A stretch of DNA of 64,000 nt from Rhodoblastus sphagnicola. GTDB lineage: Bacteria; Pseudomonadota; Alphaproteobacteria; Rhizobiales; Beijerinckiaceae. A program made the translations under genes and the position numbers. Below the pieces are notes generated by a model. That model made no database searches. It was not told the origin of the DNA and saw only the letters and a program-made list of their open reading frames with translations. Each line of letters opens with the position of its first letter. Within the stretch, counting starts at the first letter, position 1. Location: assembly GCF_002937075.1 (NCBI RefSeq), contig NZ_NHSJ01000041.1, forward strand, positions 1-64,000. The letters run 5' to 3'. Positions 22,768 to 28,618 of the stretch are shown here, piece after piece.

Positions 22768-22785
22768 CGTCAAGTAATATTTACA
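22768..22785. promoter_or_regulatory. PpsR/CrtJ-type box, distal to bchC
   Basis: TGTAAATATTACTTGACG on the minus strand, again TGT-N12-ACG. It overlaps the last bases of crtF by five. Together with 22742-22759 it forms a tandem pair. Confidence 0.6.
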
Positions 22786-23941
22786 CCCGCTGCGCGACCA
22801 GAATGTTGGCCAGCATCGGGCGACGCGAAGCCACCGCGCGCACGTCCGAGAATCCGCTCGCTTCGAGCAGGCAGGTGATTTCCGCGACCGAGCGGGTGCG
22901 ACCGCGCCCCATGGCGAGGAGATAGAAGTTGAAATAAGCGTCGCTGACGCGGTCGGAACCGCGCCCGCCGCCCATAGGCTCCGCGATCAGCAACGTGCCG
23001 CCCGGCTCCAGCGCGTCATGGGCGCGGGCGATGATGGCGCGCGCGGCCTCGTCGTCGTGGTCGTGCAGGACACGGATCAGCGACAGCACATCCGCGCCCT
23101 TGGGCAGAGAATCCGAGAAAAAATCGCCTTCATGGACAGTGACCCGCGACAACATGCCGCGCGTTTGGAGGGCGGCGCGCGCCCGGGCTGCGACCTGCGG
23201 GAGATCGAGCATCTGCGCCTCGACTTCGGGCGCAGTGATGGCGAGGACAGAGACGAACACGCCCTCGCCGCCGCCGACATCGAGCCAGCGGCGATGGCCG
23301 GTCGGCGGGAAAGCGTCCAGAATGTCCTCGGCTATGTCCAGCTGGGACTGCGCCATCAACTCGCTGTAGGCCGCATAGGCCTCGTCGACGTCAGCGCCAG
23401 CAGGCGCGGGATCGCCGGGCTTGCGGTTGGCGTAGGGCCAATAGCCCGACAACTCGGTCTTGACGTCGCCGCGCAGCAGGGCGACAGGATCGGTGAGATC
23501 AGCGTAGAGCAGCGCGTGGTGCTCGACGACAGCGCCGATAGAGGGATTGGCGAGCAAGGCGGCGCCGAGCTCGCCAAGGCCGTAGCGCTCGCCTTCAAGA
23601 TGATCGACCAGCTTCAGGGCTGTCGCGGCGCGAAGAAGGCGCTGCGTGGCGTCGAATGACAGGTCGAGATCCTCGGCGACGGAAACGATGGGGCGCGGGC
23701 CGCCGGCGAGTTTGGTGAACAAGTCGAGGCGCACGCAGGCGAGGAGGATCTGAGAATAGACAAAGCCCGAACATATGTCGAACAAGGCGTTCGATTGCCG
23801 CTCCGCGACCAGACGCGTCAGCGGGAACGAGGCCGCCCACTTCTGGAACGAGGGGTTGGCGAGCAAAAGATTGCGCCCGTGACGCAACATTTCGGACACG
23901 GACGCGGGGCCGATGGTGGCGGGGAGATTGGTTCCGGTCAT
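22781..23941 (-). CDS. crtF: Hydroxyneurosporene-type carotenoid O-methyltransferase
   Basis: SAM-dependent enzyme that methylates the 1-hydroxyl group of acyclic carotenoids. The 386-residue product has an N-terminal dimerisation region, the SAM motif RRWLDVGGGEGVF (about residues 215-227), and the family segments LSLIRVLHDHDD and LLIAEPMGGGRGSDRV. The ATG at 23941 follows the crtE stop directly (TGACATG); an ATG at 23953 is also possible. The gene appears intact although crtD, whose product normally acts in the same branch, is broken nearby, so its present substrate is uncertain. Confidence 0.92.
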   Translation of the reverse strand: MTGTNLPATIGPASVSEMLRHGRNLLLANPSFQKWAASFPLTRLVAERQSNALFDICSGFVYSQILLACVRLDLFTKLAGGPRPIVSVAEDLDLSFDATQRLLRAATALKLVDHLEGERYGLGELGAALLANPSIGAVVEHHALLYADLTDPVALLRGDVKTELSGYWPYANRKPGDPAPAGADVDEAYAAYSELMAQSQLDIAEDILDAFPPTGHRRWLDVGGGEGVFVSVLAITAPEVEAQMLDLPQVAARARAALQTRGMLSRVTVHEGDFFSDSLPKGADVLSLIRVLHDHDDEAARAIIARAHDALEPGGTLLIAEPMGGGRGSDRVSDAYFNFYLLAMGRGRTRSVAEITCLLEASGFSDVRAVASRRPMLANILVAQRV

Positions 23942-23942
23942 G

Positions 23943-24809
23943 TCAAGCCGCATACTGTTCGAGTTGCGAGGGGAACAATTGCCGAGTTTGCGCGCGGATC
24001 ACGACACGCAATTGCTCGGCGCCGGGACATTCGGGAATCGAGGCGGCGGCCGCATCGGCGAGTTCCGTGAGGCGCGCCTTGGCGCCGCCGATGCCCAACT
24101 GGGCGGCGGCGTTCGGCCGCGCGCGCCGTTCGTCCTGGTGGGCGGGCTTGCCGAGTTCTTCCGCGTCGCACAGCAGGTCGCGGAGATCGTCGGCGACCTG
24201 ATAGGCCTCGCCGATATAGTCGCCCAGAGCGCGCCAGGGCTCAGGATCGCGGCCGGCGGCGGCGGCGCCTGCGAGGGTCGCGCCGGCGAACAGGGCGCCG
24301 GTCTTGGCGCGCTGGTAATCGACCAGAGAGATCGTGGATTCGGATTCCCAAGCCTGACCGGCGATGATGCCCCCCGGCGCACCGACCGCGCGCGAAACGA
24401 TGGAAATCATGGCGGCCAGTTGACGCGGATCGGACGCGAAGGCTTTCGCGATCGTCTCGTAGGCGAGCACGATCAGCGCATCGCCTGTCAGCACGGCGAG
24501 AGGCTCGCCATATTCGACATGGATGGTCGGCTTGCCCCTGCGAATGGGCGCGTCGTCAAAGGCCGGCAGGTCGTCATGGACGAGCGAGGCGCAATGCATG
24601 AATTCGATTGCGGAGGCGGCGGCGTCGGTGTGATGTGGATTTGGATCGCCGCAGGCCATGGCGACCGCGAGAACGATTTGCGGCCTGATTCTATGACCGC
24701 CGGGGAAGACGGCATAGCGCAAGGCGGAGGCGAGCAACGGCGGGCAATTGGCTCCGCCGGCCTCCATCAGGGCCGCTTCAAGAGCCTTTTCGACGCGCTC
24801 CATGTGCAT
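23943..24809 (-). CDS. crtE: Geranylgeranyl diphosphate synthase
   Basis: Trans-prenyltransferase making the C20 precursor for carotenoids and the bacteriochlorophyll tail. The 288 residues contain the first aspartate-rich motif DDLPAFDD and the second DDLRD, plus the family segment GQAWESESTISLVDYQRAKTGAL in between. The ATG at 24809 has a GGAGG site 7 bases before it and matches homologue N-termini; a GTG at 24839 in the same frame is less likely. A perfect PpsR box lies 37-54 bp upstream. Confidence 0.95.
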   Translation of the reverse strand: MHMERVEKALEAALMEAGGANCPPLLASALRYAVFPGGHRIRPQIVLAVAMACGDPNPHHTDAAASAIEFMHCASLVHDDLPAFDDAPIRRGKPTIHVEYGEPLAVLTGDALIVLAYETIAKAFASDPRQLAAMISIVSRAVGAPGGIIAGQAWESESTISLVDYQRAKTGALFAGATLAGAAAAGRDPEPWRALGDYIGEAYQVADDLRDLLCDAEELGKPAHQDERRARPNAAAQLGIGGAKARLTELADAAAASIPECPGAEQLRVVIRAQTRQLFPSQLEQYAA

Positions 24810-24845
24810 CACCGCCTCCGTGACCTTTTCAATAGACACTCAAAG

Positions 24846-24863
24846 TGTAAGATAATATTGACA
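24846..24863. promoter_or_regulatory. PpsR/CrtJ box between crtE and the crtD remnant
   Basis: TGTAAGATAATATTGACA, a full match to TGT-N12-ACA on the plus strand. It lies in the divergent promoter region of crtE (minus) and the decayed crtD (plus). Confidence 0.7.
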
Positions 24864-24907
24864 GCTTTTGCCGGCGCGTCAATCCTTTTCCCTCTGGCTC
24901 GGGGGCG

Positions 24908-25346
24908 ATGACGGCGGCGAGGCCCGAAGTCGTCGCGATCGGCTCGGGCGGCGGCGGACTTGTTCCGGCGCGGCTGTCGTCCGCGCGGAGCTGGACATGG
25001 GGTGTGCTCGATACCGGCAATACGCCAGGCGACAAACTCCGCGCCATCGAGATCGCGGGCCGGAGCATCGGCGTCGGCCCCTCAGTCTTTACCTTCCGAG
25101 ACGTGTTCGAGGCCCTGTTTGCCGGATGTGGCGGGGAATTGGGCGATCATCTCACGCTGAATCGCGCCGAGCGGTTCGCCTGGCGCTTGTGGAGCGGTGG
25201 CGCGCGGCCCAACTTCTTTTCCCGATATCGAGGCCAAGGTCGAGGCAATCCTGGACTTCGTCGGGGTGATCGAGGCGGAGGGACATCGCGCCTTGACGGC
25301 CTGCGCAACGCGCAGTCATGCGACACTTAACCGCGCCTTCATGCGC
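24908..25346 (+). pseudogene. crtD: Remnant of carotenoid 3,4-desaturase (frameshifted and truncated)
   Basis: The frame starting at 24908 resembles the CrtD N-terminus: PEVVAIGSGGGGLVPARL in place of the FAD motif, then TPGDKLR, IGVGPSVFTFRDVFEALF and LGDHLTLNRAERFAWRLW. Near 25200-25215 homology moves to another frame (FPDIEAKVEAILDFVGVIEA, EGHRALTACATRSHATLNRA), showing a frameshift. Homology stops at about 25346, so only 140-145 of roughly 500 codons remain. The FAD motif and the following strand are also eroded. The gene sits divergently from crtE, the usual crtD neighbourhood. I judge it non-functional. Confidence 0.8.
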
Positions 25347-25732
25347 GACCGATGCGGTTTCCGCGAGACTGTTTCGCGATCCGCGAAAGCAAATCGCACG
25401 AACGTCCTTGAAGCCAAGGCGTAAGGCCGCGCGAAAGGAATACGAAATCAAAAAATGGATCATTCGGACTTCGTATGACCTCGATCACAGTCGCCGGCGG
25501 CGTCTTTTCGCCCGTTGACGCGAAGAGCGCATTCCGCCCACCCCAACCAATATCGCGCGATCACGCACGCCCTCGATGCTGCGCCCTCGCGCTTTTCACG
25601 GGGGGGGGGCGAAAATTTTCTGGTCGCGCCCAGTTCCTCTCCCGCGAGGCGGCGTCACTATGTCGCGGCCTGCGCATCCCCAAGCCATGCCTTATCGACA
25701 GCCGCTCAGCCTGGCTGGCCTCGCACGGGAAC
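25347..25732. other. Degenerate stretch after the crtD remnant
   Basis: No intact gene. It contains a run of ten G (25600-25609) and short open frames without clear homology. One plus-strand frame from 25475 encodes TSITVAGGVFSPVDAKSA followed by ALALFTGGGRKF. This weakly recalls the VFSP and NVALYG regions of CrtC (carotenoid 1,2-hydratase), which often follows crtD. It may be a decayed crtC, but the similarity is too short to call. Confidence 0.4.
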
Positions 25733-26062
25733 TCAGGCGCGCGGCGCCAACCGCGCCTCCAATGCCTCCAACTCGGCGAGACGGGCGCGTCCGGCTTCGA
25801 TTTCAGCGCGAATAGCGGCGGCGCGGGTGATGTCGTCCTCCTCGGGAGAGACAGCCTCGATGCGTTCTTCGATGAGGAGCGCGGCCTCGGTGACGATCGC
25901 GGTCTCTCGAACAGGCGCGACCTGCTCGCGCGGCTCTCGCGCGGCCCGCTCCTGATCTTCGCGGAGGCTGCGCTTCGTCACCACCAATTGCCAGGTCAGA
26001 AAGGCCAGCACGAGCGCGAAGGGAATCAGCATTTCGATAAAGGCGATCGTATTTCCCGACAT
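25733..26062 (-). CDS. Small single-span membrane protein coupled to crtB
   Basis: A 109-residue protein with one N-terminal transmembrane helix (about residues 8-27, FIEMLIPFALVLAFLTWQL) and a charged, probably helical tail rich in Glu, Arg and Ala. Its ATG overlaps the crtB stop (TGATG), so it is made together with phytoene synthase. No function is known to me. A membrane anchor or partner for CrtB/CrtI is a reasonable guess from coupling alone. Confidence 0.65.
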   Translation of the reverse strand: MSGNTIAFIEMLIPFALVLAFLTWQLVVTKRSLREDQERAAREPREQVAPVRETAIVTEAALLIEERIEAVSPEEDDITRAAAIRAEIEAGRARLAELEALEARLAPRA

Positions 26063-27108
26063 CAGCGCACCATCTGTTGAGCACGGTCTCGTCGCTCCAG
26101 CCGCTCGTACATTTCGAGCACCGTCAGCGCGCGCGACTTAAAAGTCGCGGGAGCGAATGTCGGCGCGGGTTCGCGCCCGACCGCTTCGACCAGGAAAGCG
26201 GTTTCGGGCAAGGCGGGCGCCGGCGCGTGGGTCCGCGGCGCAATCGCGCGCAGGCTGGCCTCGGCCAGCAGCGCCAGCTTGCGCCTGTTGCCGATATAGG
26301 CGCGCGACGTCACGGAATCATGCCCGCGTCGTTCGACCTCGCGCCCGATCTCGCAATAGATCAGGGCGGCGGCGAGAATGGCGGGCCGGCAGCCGGCGGG
26401 AAGCCGCGCCACGCCGTCGCGCGCGCGCTCGTAAAGGCGATCGGCTTCAGCGAGGAGGCGCGCGACCACGCTTGCCAGCGCCTCGGACGGGGCCGGGGCG
26501 GCGAGGAAAACCTCGGGGTCGACGCCCGCCTCCACCAGCCAGTCGAGCGGCAGGTAGAGCCGGCCGGCGCGCGCGTCCTCGCCGACGTCGCGGGCGATAT
26601 TGGTGAGTTGCATGGCGACGCCGAGGTCGCAGGCCCGCGCCAGCGCGATCGGGTCGCGCACACCCATCAACAGGGTCATCATCACGCCGACTGTCGAGGC
26701 CACGCGCGCGGAATAGGCGCGCAACTCCGACAGATTGGCGGGCATGCGGCCCTCGCTGTCCCAGGCGAAGCCGTCGATCAGCGCGAAGGGAATTTCGCGG
26801 GGGATGTAAAAGGACCGCACGATGTCGGAAAACGCCCGATCGGCGGGATGGTCCACCGGCGCGCCCTCATAGACCCGGGTGAGCCGTTCGCGCAGCCGCT
26901 CCACCGCCGCCGCCTTGGCTTCATGCTCGTCGACCGCGTCGTCGGCGAGCCGGCAGAAGGCGTAAAGCCCGAAGGACGGGCGCCGCACAGCTTCGGGCAG
27001 CAGCCACGAAGCGGTGAAGAAGCTTTTAGAGCCGCCGCGAATGGATTCGCGGCAAGCGGCGTGATCAGCCTCGGTGGCCAGCCGCGCCTCAGGCGAAAGT
27101 GCAAGCAT
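26062..27108 (-). CDS. crtB: Phytoene synthase
   Basis: Joins two geranylgeranyl diphosphates to 15-cis-phytoene. The 348-residue product shows both metal-binding aspartate regions, DDAVDE (about 56-61) and NIARDVGEDARAGRLYLP, and the family start GGSKSFFTASWLLP. The ATG at 27108 overlaps the crtI end by 20 bases; an upstream extension to 27150 is not needed. Upstream gene crtI and downstream small membrane protein form one operon with it. Confidence 0.96.
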   Translation of the reverse strand: MLALSPEARLATEADHAACRESIRGGSKSFFTASWLLPEAVRRPSFGLYAFCRLADDAVDEHEAKAAAVERLRERLTRVYEGAPVDHPADRAFSDIVRSFYIPREIPFALIDGFAWDSEGRMPANLSELRAYSARVASTVGVMMTLLMGVRDPIALARACDLGVAMQLTNIARDVGEDARAGRLYLPLDWLVEAGVDPEVFLAAPAPSEALASVVARLLAEADRLYERARDGVARLPAGCRPAILAAALIYCEIGREVERRGHDSVTSRAYIGNRRKLALLAEASLRAIAPRTHAPAPALPETAFLVEAVGREPAPTFAPATFKSRALTVLEMYERLERRDRAQQMVR

Positions 27109-28618
27109 CGGGCGCAACCTTGTCGAGAATCCGGGCAGAGGACAGCACACCGGGAAGACCCGCGCCGGGATGCACGCCCGCGCCGACGAGGAACAAATTC
27201 TCGATGTCCTCGCTGCGATTGTGAGGACGGAAATATGCGCTCTGCGTCAGAAGGGGTTCGAGTCCGAAGCCTTCGCCATGGATGGCGTTGAGCCGGTCGC
27301 GAAAATCGAGCGGCGTCGTCACCCGGGACACGACGATGTGCTTGCTCAGATCGGGCAGGATGTTCGCCTCCAGCCAGCTCTCGATGCGCTTGCGATAGCC
27401 TTCGGCTTCGAGGCGCCATTCCTGGCCGCCCTGAAGATTGGGAACCGGCGACAGCGCATAGAACGTGTCGCAGCCGCGCGGCGCGACCGACGGATCAGTC
27501 GCGGTCGGCCGATGCAGGTAAAGGCTGAAATCCTCGGCCAGAACCTTGCGCTGGAAGATATCCTTCAGGAGACCCTCATAACGCGGACCCATCAGAATGC
27601 TGTGATGGCCGATGTCGTCGTAACGGCGATTGACGCCGAAATACCAGACGAACAGGCCCATGGAATATTTGGCGCGCTGTAGCCTGGAATCCGTCCAGCG
27701 CTTGCGCGTATCCGGGGGCAGCAGGCTGCGATAGGTATAAGCGGAATCGGCGTTGGAGACGACGATGTCGGCGCGCAGCCTTTCGCCGCCGGACAGTTCC
27801 ACGCCGACGGCCCGGCCGCTTTCGACCAGAATCTGGCGGATGTCGGCGCGATAGCGTATCTCGCCGCCCTGCGATTCGATCAGCTTGACCAGCCCGCGCA
27901 CCAGCGCGCCCGTGCCGCCGATCGCCGAATGCACGCCGTAATTCTTTTCCAGGAAGGCGACCAGGCAATAGATCGAGGACACGCGGAAGGGGTCGCCGCC
28001 GATCAGCAGCGGATGGTAGCTGAAGATCGTCCGCAGACGCTCGCTCTTGAAGAATTTGGACACCAGGCCGCGCACGCTGCGGTAGCCTTGCAGGCGCACC
28101 AGATCCGGCGCGATGCGGGCCATGTCCGCCAGCGAATCGAAGGGAACGTCGCCGAGCTTCTCGAAGCCGATGCGATAGATGGATTCGCTCATCGCCATGA
28201 AGGCGTCGAAATTCGGACCTTCGCCGGGCGCGATGCGCTCGACCTCCGCCCTCATCGCCTCGCGGTCGCCGCGATAGGTGAAGGTTTCGCCGTCGCTGAA
28301 GCGGATCTTGTAAAAGGGGTCCATCTCGCGCAGTTCGACGTCATCGGACATCTTGCGACCGCACAGGCCCCAGAGCTCCTCGAACAGGAAGGGCGCGGTG
28401 ACGATGGTGGGGCCGGCGTCGAAGGTGAAGCCGTCGATGTGATGCTGGTAGGCGCGCCCGCCGGGCGCGTCGAGGCGCTCCAGCACCTTGACGGCATAGC
28501 CGCGCGCGCCAAGCCTGACCGCGGCGGCGAGTCCGCCAAAGCCGGAGCCGATGACGAGCGCGACGGGTTTGCGTTGGCCCGTGGCGCCGCCGGTGTGTTC
28601 TTCCTGGACCGTCAACAT
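27089..28618 (-). CDS. crtI: Phytoene desaturase
   Basis: FAD-dependent desaturase turning phytoene into neurosporene or lycopene. The 509 residues include ALVIGSGFGGLAAAVRLGARG, the CrtI signature DAPGGRAYQHHIDGFTFDAGP, and the C-terminal FLVGAGVHPGAGLPGVLSSA. It is intact, in contrast to the related crtD. The start is the ATG at 28618; a weak PpsR-like box (CGTCAACATGAGATGACA, 28610-28627) overlaps it. Confidence 0.97.
   Translation of the reverse strand: MLTVQEEHTGGATGQRKPVALVIGSGFGGLAAAVRLGARGYAVKVLERLDAPGGRAYQHHIDGFTFDAGPTIVTAPFLFEELWGLCGRKMSDDVELREMDPFYKIRFSDGETFTYRGDREAMRAEVERIAPGEGPNFDAFMAMSESIYRIGFEKLGDVPFDSLADMARIAPDLVRLQGYRSVRGLVSKFFKSERLRTIFSYHPLLIGGDPFRVSSIYCLVAFLEKNYGVHSAIGGTGALVRGLVKLIESQGGEIRYRADIRQILVESGRAVGVELSGGERLRADIVVSNADSAYTYRSLLPPDTRKRWTDSRLQRAKYSMGLFVWYFGVNRRYDDIGHHSILMGPRYEGLLKDIFQRKVLAEDFSLYLHRPTATDPSVAPRGCDTFYALSPVPNLQGGQEWRLEAEGYRKRIESWLEANILPDLSKHIVVSRVTTPLDFRDRLNAIHGEGFGLEPLLTQSAYFRPHNRSEDIENLFLVGAGVHPGAGLPGVLSSARILDKVAPDACTFA

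Follow-up and report, generated by a model that had tools for sequence, protein, structure and literature searches.

A frameshifted and truncated crtD remnant next to a 123-bp repeat in the photosynthesis gene cluster of Rhodoblastus sphagnicola

The 64,000-nucleotide stretch of DNA analyzed here (the window) carries, where its relatives have crtD (the gene for 1-hydroxycarotenoid 3,4-desaturase), what is almost certainly a frameshifted, truncated pseudogene of that gene. The account that we regard as highly probable when taken as a whole joins this pseudogene to an element-associated deletion across crtD and crtC and to an altered set of pigments. The event is a fairly ordinary case of gene decay, of a known kind. 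An earlier reading made from the letters of the window (the sequence-only reading) had already described the remnant; beyond it lie the repeat at the junction, a probable crtC remnant, a distant crtC, and the uniqueness of this state among the 16 phototrophic genomes examined.

The genome (G000) is a draft assembly of 5,086,506 bases in 141 contigs and is 99.26% complete. Judged from its genes, the host is a phototrophic purple bacterium of the genus Rhodoblastus, close to R. acidophilus: its CrtF shares 85% identity with the protein of Rhodoblastus acidophilus DSM 137, and the other 22 loci in the scan stand at 42-53%. We compared it with 59 relatives (60 genomes in all), including a genus set of 11 (G000-G010). 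PufLM was found in 16 of the 60 genomes and CrtD above its curated cut-off in 15, and the two lists differ solely at G000. Within the genus, five of the 11 members have PufLM and six lack it, a patchy distribution of phototrophy. A literature search, outside which most subscription papers lay, returned no report of Crt loss in Rhodoblastus and no pigment description of R. sphagnicola.

Structure and decay of the crtD remnant

The remnant occupies 24908-25347 and homology to crtD stops at 25347, so that the first ~144 of ~500 codons are left, carrying a single +1 frameshift (Table 1); about 145 codons with the C-terminal two thirds missing is what the sequence-only reading had described. That reading proposed aligning both frames to CrtD, and both indeed match the CrtD equivalog profile, NCBIfam NF045637, as partial homologues well under its curated cut-off of 580 bits: the ORF at 24908-25330 covers profile positions 1-93 of 485 (E 3.4e-19, 68.7 bits), and the ORF that starts at 25197 covers positions 97-149 (E 0.013). 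The remnant is also collinear with R. acidophilus, and its identification as a frameshifted, truncated crtD is thereby borne out. The DNA alignment of 24801-25347 to R. acidophilus DSM 137 (L061) has 549 columns and 73% identity (E 3e-89), and it takes in the highly conserved crtE-crtD spacer. Instead of a full-length CrtD in a single frame, the locus thus holds ~144 codons with one frameshift and then a repeat element, and it does so at the orthologous position, with crtE on one side and the small ORF, crtB and crtI on the other, an arrangement shared with R. acidophilus and the relatives G001 and G005.

Table 1. Features of the window from crtF to crtI, with positions in the window
Feature	Position	Strand	Remarks
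crtF	22781..23953	-	intact, constrained
crtE	23943..24839	-	intact, divergent from crtD
TGT-N12-ACA site	24846..24863	.	divergent crtE/crtD spacer; in 5/5 aligned Rhodoblastus sequences; presumably PpsR/CrtJ-type
crtD remnant part A	24908..25212	+	101 codons, one frame; core FAD glycines kept; in-frame ATG one codon upstream of start used in relatives
+1 frameshift interval	25208..25222	+	five-genome alignment
crtD remnant part B	25218..25347	+	43 codons, shifted frame
MITE-like dispersed repeat, 123 bp	25353..25475	+	flanks CGA (25350-25352) and TGA (25476-25478)
Probable crtC remnant 1	25476..25593	+	relatives' segment encodes TIIAFVGSVFSPYY onward
Possible crtC remnant 2	25617..25670	+	FWRPIAPLARVSVTMSQP in G001; collinear with remnant 1
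Small ORF	25733..26062	-	partly conserved, between crtB and remnants
crtB	26062..27150	-	intact
crtI of photosynthesis cluster	27089..28618	-	intact, 89% identical to R. acidophilus

An alignment of five Rhodoblastus genomes places the lone indel of the remnant, a +1 within the CTTCTTTTCCC stretch, at about 25208-25222, in keeping with the frame change that had been located near 25200-25215; the indel sits in a T/C-rich run. A BLASTN picture with several small gaps was superseded by this alignment with one indel. The FAD motif had been called eroded, which is only partly so: as read from the alignment, the GxGxxG core survives, as GSGGGG here against GAGVGG in R. acidophilus, and GGKLR has become GDKLR and one conserved E is now D.

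Lineage-specific amino-acid changes were counted wherever a pair of outgroup genomes had the same residue. Over 125 sites of the crtD remnant there are 32 changes unique to G000 and 7 unique to R. acidophilus (23 and 7 over 92 sites and 9 and 0 over 33 sites when the remnant is split), against 65 and 64 over 1759 sites of five intact neighbors, which indicates that selection on the crtD remnant was relaxed (Fisher p 0.0004, remnant against the five genes). Gene by gene, the counts for G000 and R. acidophilus are 7 and 7 of 289 sites in crtE, 14 and 17 of 341 in crtB, 23 and 15 of 483 in crtI, and 8 and 9 of 284 in bchC; crtF, described earlier as intact, is indeed intact and is not relaxed, with 13 and 16 of 362. 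The excess dN on the G000 branch was 0.108 (5-95% 0.051-0.166) and 0.135 (0.084-0.196) with the two outgroups, and it fell to zero or below in 0 of 500 bootstraps with each. The remnant has therefore not been under purifying selection equal to that on its neighbors, as both the 32 changes against 7 and 500 of 500 bootstraps show. The fraction of the branch passed without selection comes to 0.45 (0.25-0.68) and 0.48 (0.30-0.71) with the two outgroups, a rough estimate that uses a synonymous rate borrowed from the five intact genes, the rate from crtD itself being unusable (0.347 with one outgroup and 0.053 with the other for the same branch).

These counts bear on two other ways of reading the locus. 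The first is that the truncation is an artefact of assembly or sequencing and that a full-length crtD exists. The assembly is indeed a draft of many contigs, and the +1, in its T/C-rich run, could by itself be a base error, an explanation that fits neither the truncation nor the excess of replacements. The remnant, the repeat, the probable crtC remnant and the conserved flanks are consecutive in one contig, and the excess of replacements is found on the G000 branch only, so that we consider an artefact hardly credible. The second is that the ORF, which is open for 140 amino acids from its ATG and stands behind a conserved spacer, encodes a shortened protein that has been kept for another role and is driven by the divergent crtE promoter. 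We find this very improbable, as the last ~39 residues of the 140 lie outside the CrtD frame and the G000 branch shows much less constraint here than it does in the neighboring genes, a result with which a late, new constraint would be compatible.

A breakpoint repeat followed by a probable crtC remnant

Five bases past the end of CrtD homology begins a dispersed repeat. A search of G000 with 25340-25760 gave at least 39 other matches (E up to 1), and 33 of those listed fall in the first ~147 bases of the query. After nine of 29 rows, degenerate or partial, had been removed, twenty aligned copies defined an element roughly 121-123 bp long whose ends are imperfect inverted repeats; the consensus ends read TACGGTTTCCG ... 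CGGATTTCGTA and are alike at 8 of 11 positions as inverted repeats. Leaving the window copy aside, 14 of 19 copies lie between identical 3-bp TNA flanks. The copy in the window stands 13.9% from the consensus, among the four most diverged copies, a distance slightly inflated because this copy was excluded from the consensus. With as many as 3 mismatches allowed, a 25-base pattern taken from the end occurs at 27 sites in G000, including the window's, and the reversed pattern at none. At E <= 0.001 the repeat has matches in five of the 11 genomes of the genus: 30 in G000, at least 41 in G001, and 1 or 2 in each of three others.

The repeat is thus short with many dispersed copies, and the family has terminal inverted repeats and a target-site duplication, as expected of a MITE; the window copy itself is flanked by CGA and TGA. 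Its 3-bp TNA duplication is shared with the IS1031 subgroup of IS5 elements, as PMC12016507 describes them, from which the repeat differs in length (123 against 857 bp) and in its ends (TACGG... against GAACC...). A comparison of 24800-26100 with Rfam gave no family at E up to 1, and our literature search returned no paper on Rhodoblastus MITEs and none on the 123-bp repeat.

On the far side of the repeat, in the place where crtC comes after crtD in G001, G005 and G009, we found similarity to crtC. The crtC of G005 is 92% identical to that of G001, and the cluster CrtC of G001 and of G009 score about 300 bits on NF045922, against a curated cut-off of 400. From a shared TGACC, remnant 1 aligns with crtC over 118 columns at 63% (G001), 65% (G005) and 61% (G009), scoring 40.5, 49.7 and 34.3 bits, where the best of 20 single-base shuffles per comparison reached 29.7 in each case. 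Remnant 2 scores 32.8 bits with G001, above the shuffles, and 26.6 with G005 and 23.5 with G009, not above them. At the protein level the profile match ranks first of 1664 window fragments but is not significant (sequence E 2.2), and tblastn gives E 0.022 with G009 and 2.2 with G001 and G005, whose best hits in the window fall elsewhere. What the segment 25476-25670 offers is therefore above-chance similarity at the DNA level, in the expected place and order, for remnant 1 with three relatives. A second crtC-like fragment, containing stops, lies near the intact crtC of G009 (G009:C44:1653-1859).

The crtD of R. acidophilus DSM 137 has the same place and orientation and is collinear over the remnant; unlike the gene here it is full-length, that genome has no match to the repeat at E <= 0.001, and at that place there is no crtC-like signal above shuffles. 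A search with 25481-25760 found no alignment that outscored the shuffles in R. acidophilus or on the other G009 contig.

The two breakpoints are 1133 (G001), 1127 (G005) and 1130 (G009) bp apart in the relatives, and at the repeat ~1.13 kb is probably missing, made up of the 3' two thirds of crtD together with the 5' part of crtC. The ancestral order would have been that of G001 and G005, with crtE divergent from crtD-crtC and then the small ORF, crtB and crtI, and we think it likely that a crtD-crtC deletion associated with the element took place. The simplest mechanism would be a deletion tied to the element, such as recombination between a copy in crtD and another in crtC; the CGA and TGA flanks of the window copy also fit a lone insertion with later mutation. 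What was left over would then have decayed through the frameshift, the excess of replacements and a further gap in crtC.

Carotenoid genes elsewhere in the genome

The sequence-only reading had asked for a search of the rest of the genome for another crtD, and in the draft assembly there is no full-length CrtD and no match above 580 bits, a result with which a crtD lying outside the assembled contigs would still be compatible. The best matches to NF045637 are three full-length genes at 221-227 bits, all CrtI-type. In a tree of 44 rows, which leaves out the CrtD of G009, 8 CrtD rows split from 36 CrtI rows at 100/100. Both extra CrtI-family copies of G000, on contigs C10 and C73, fall on the CrtI side; the window crtI and its R. 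acidophilus counterpart form a pair (97/64), the C73 copy pairs with the R. acidophilus C52 copy (98/100), and the place of the C10 copy within the CrtI side is not fixed. The translation of the C73 gene (L030 9743-11212) is ~93% identical to that of the contig C52 gene, and among the ORFs listed around it no further carotenoid gene was recognized by eye.

The distant crtC is grouped on C10 (L029 2690-8247) with a crtI paralogue, two further genes and a short-chain dehydrogenase. The two further genes we take to encode an NAD(P)-binding protein and a DUF2269-like protein. In R. acidophilus (L150) the same two neighbors, crtC and then a short-chain dehydrogenase are grouped likewise, minus the crtI, a relative of which did not turn up in the 16 kb surrounding the corresponding crtC. 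The C10 crtC is 52% identical to the cluster crtC of G001, the R. acidophilus crtC on C29 is 50% identical to it, and the C10 CrtC scores 277 bits on NF045922 (curated cut-off 400). This diverged gene probably keeps up the hydration of lycopene, and the C10 cluster is a candidate site for genes of late steps in the carotenoid pathway, those leading to rhodopinal among them.

The function of CrtD might instead have been taken over by an extra CrtI, either the copy on C10, which ends about 1.9 kb ahead of crtC and has no counterpart in the R. acidophilus stretch, where crtD is kept, or the copy on C73; crtD would then be dispensable and the pigments unchanged, as the lack of relaxation in crtF would allow. 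We hold this to be unlikely. Both copies group with CrtI rather than CrtD and reach 221 and 228 bits on NF045637 against a cut-off of 580, the counterpart of the C73 copy coexists with an intact crtD in R. acidophilus, and the retention of crtF can be explained otherwise, by 1-HO-lycopene as a substrate (PMC10604819). A related idea, to which we give similarly little credence, is that the crtC and short-chain dehydrogenase cluster, also present in R. acidophilus, together with the nearby crtI replaced the crtD-crtC module and so permitted the loss of crtD. If true, the C10 CrtI-type enzyme would work at the 1-hydroxy end, either desaturating it or carrying out an oxidation of the rhodopinal type, for which a review calls the genes unknown (PMC10604819).

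A further gene on C87 (L093 9651-10721) was considered as crtC because of a match to PF07143 ("CrtC") and rejected. Its protein has two lipocalin domains and matches no NCBIfam model at E 0.01, NF045922 included, whereas the cluster CrtC of the relatives matches NF045922 and not PF07143; the Pfam name is a naming trap.

Expected pigments and the role of crtF

With the deletion of crtD as the preferred account, the loss of CrtD leads us to expect pigments with shorter conjugation than those of the relatives. From published enzyme data, the pathway without CrtD would stop at lycopene and rhodopin, to which CrtF would add methoxy groups. On balance we expect methoxylated lycopenes beside lycopene and rhodopin, and not neurosporene. 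The sequence-only reading had offered pigments of the rhodopin or neurosporene type; rhodopin is expected, and neurosporene-type pigments are unlikely because the CrtI here shares 89% identity with the R. acidophilus protein, a four-step enzyme according to PMC4331045. The same source states that the desaturase of Rps. acidophila gives lycopene and that the organism makes rhodopin and its glucoside.

The closest experimental likeness is an Rba. sphaeroides strain with crtD(Ga) and a four-step CrtI, in which CrtD is lost and CrtC and CrtF are kept. Its pigments, according to PMC4331045, are 34% lycopene, 26% rhodopin, 18% dimethoxy-lycopene, 11% methoxy-lycopene and 7% methoxy-hydroxy-lycopene. 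There the pigments were seen, whereas here they are predicted from genes alone; and crtD(Ga) is a stop-codon mutation, in contrast to natural truncation and decay. Counting against our account, the same source reports that a full crtD deletion in Rba. sphaeroides gave no stable phenotype.

The role of crtF had been left open by the sequence-only reading, and a candidate can now be named: a review lists 1-HO-lycopene among the substrates of CrtF (PMC10604819), with which the continued constraint on crtF fits, and methoxy-lycopenes are present in the crtD mutant. In work on Rps. palustris the opposite is assumed, namely that CrtF depends on CrtD and cannot act normally where crtD is hardly expressed (PMC10702980). 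crtF need not be idle without crtD, and the loss of crtD may remove a branch that is minor in the genus, in which case CrtF would have substrates left.

The locus is a natural counterpart of laboratory crtD mutants in which the breakpoint is preserved and for which a pigment set is predicted. It suggests, too, that a photosynthesis cluster can lose its crtD-crtC pair and the genome still keep PufLM, crtF and a distant crtC.
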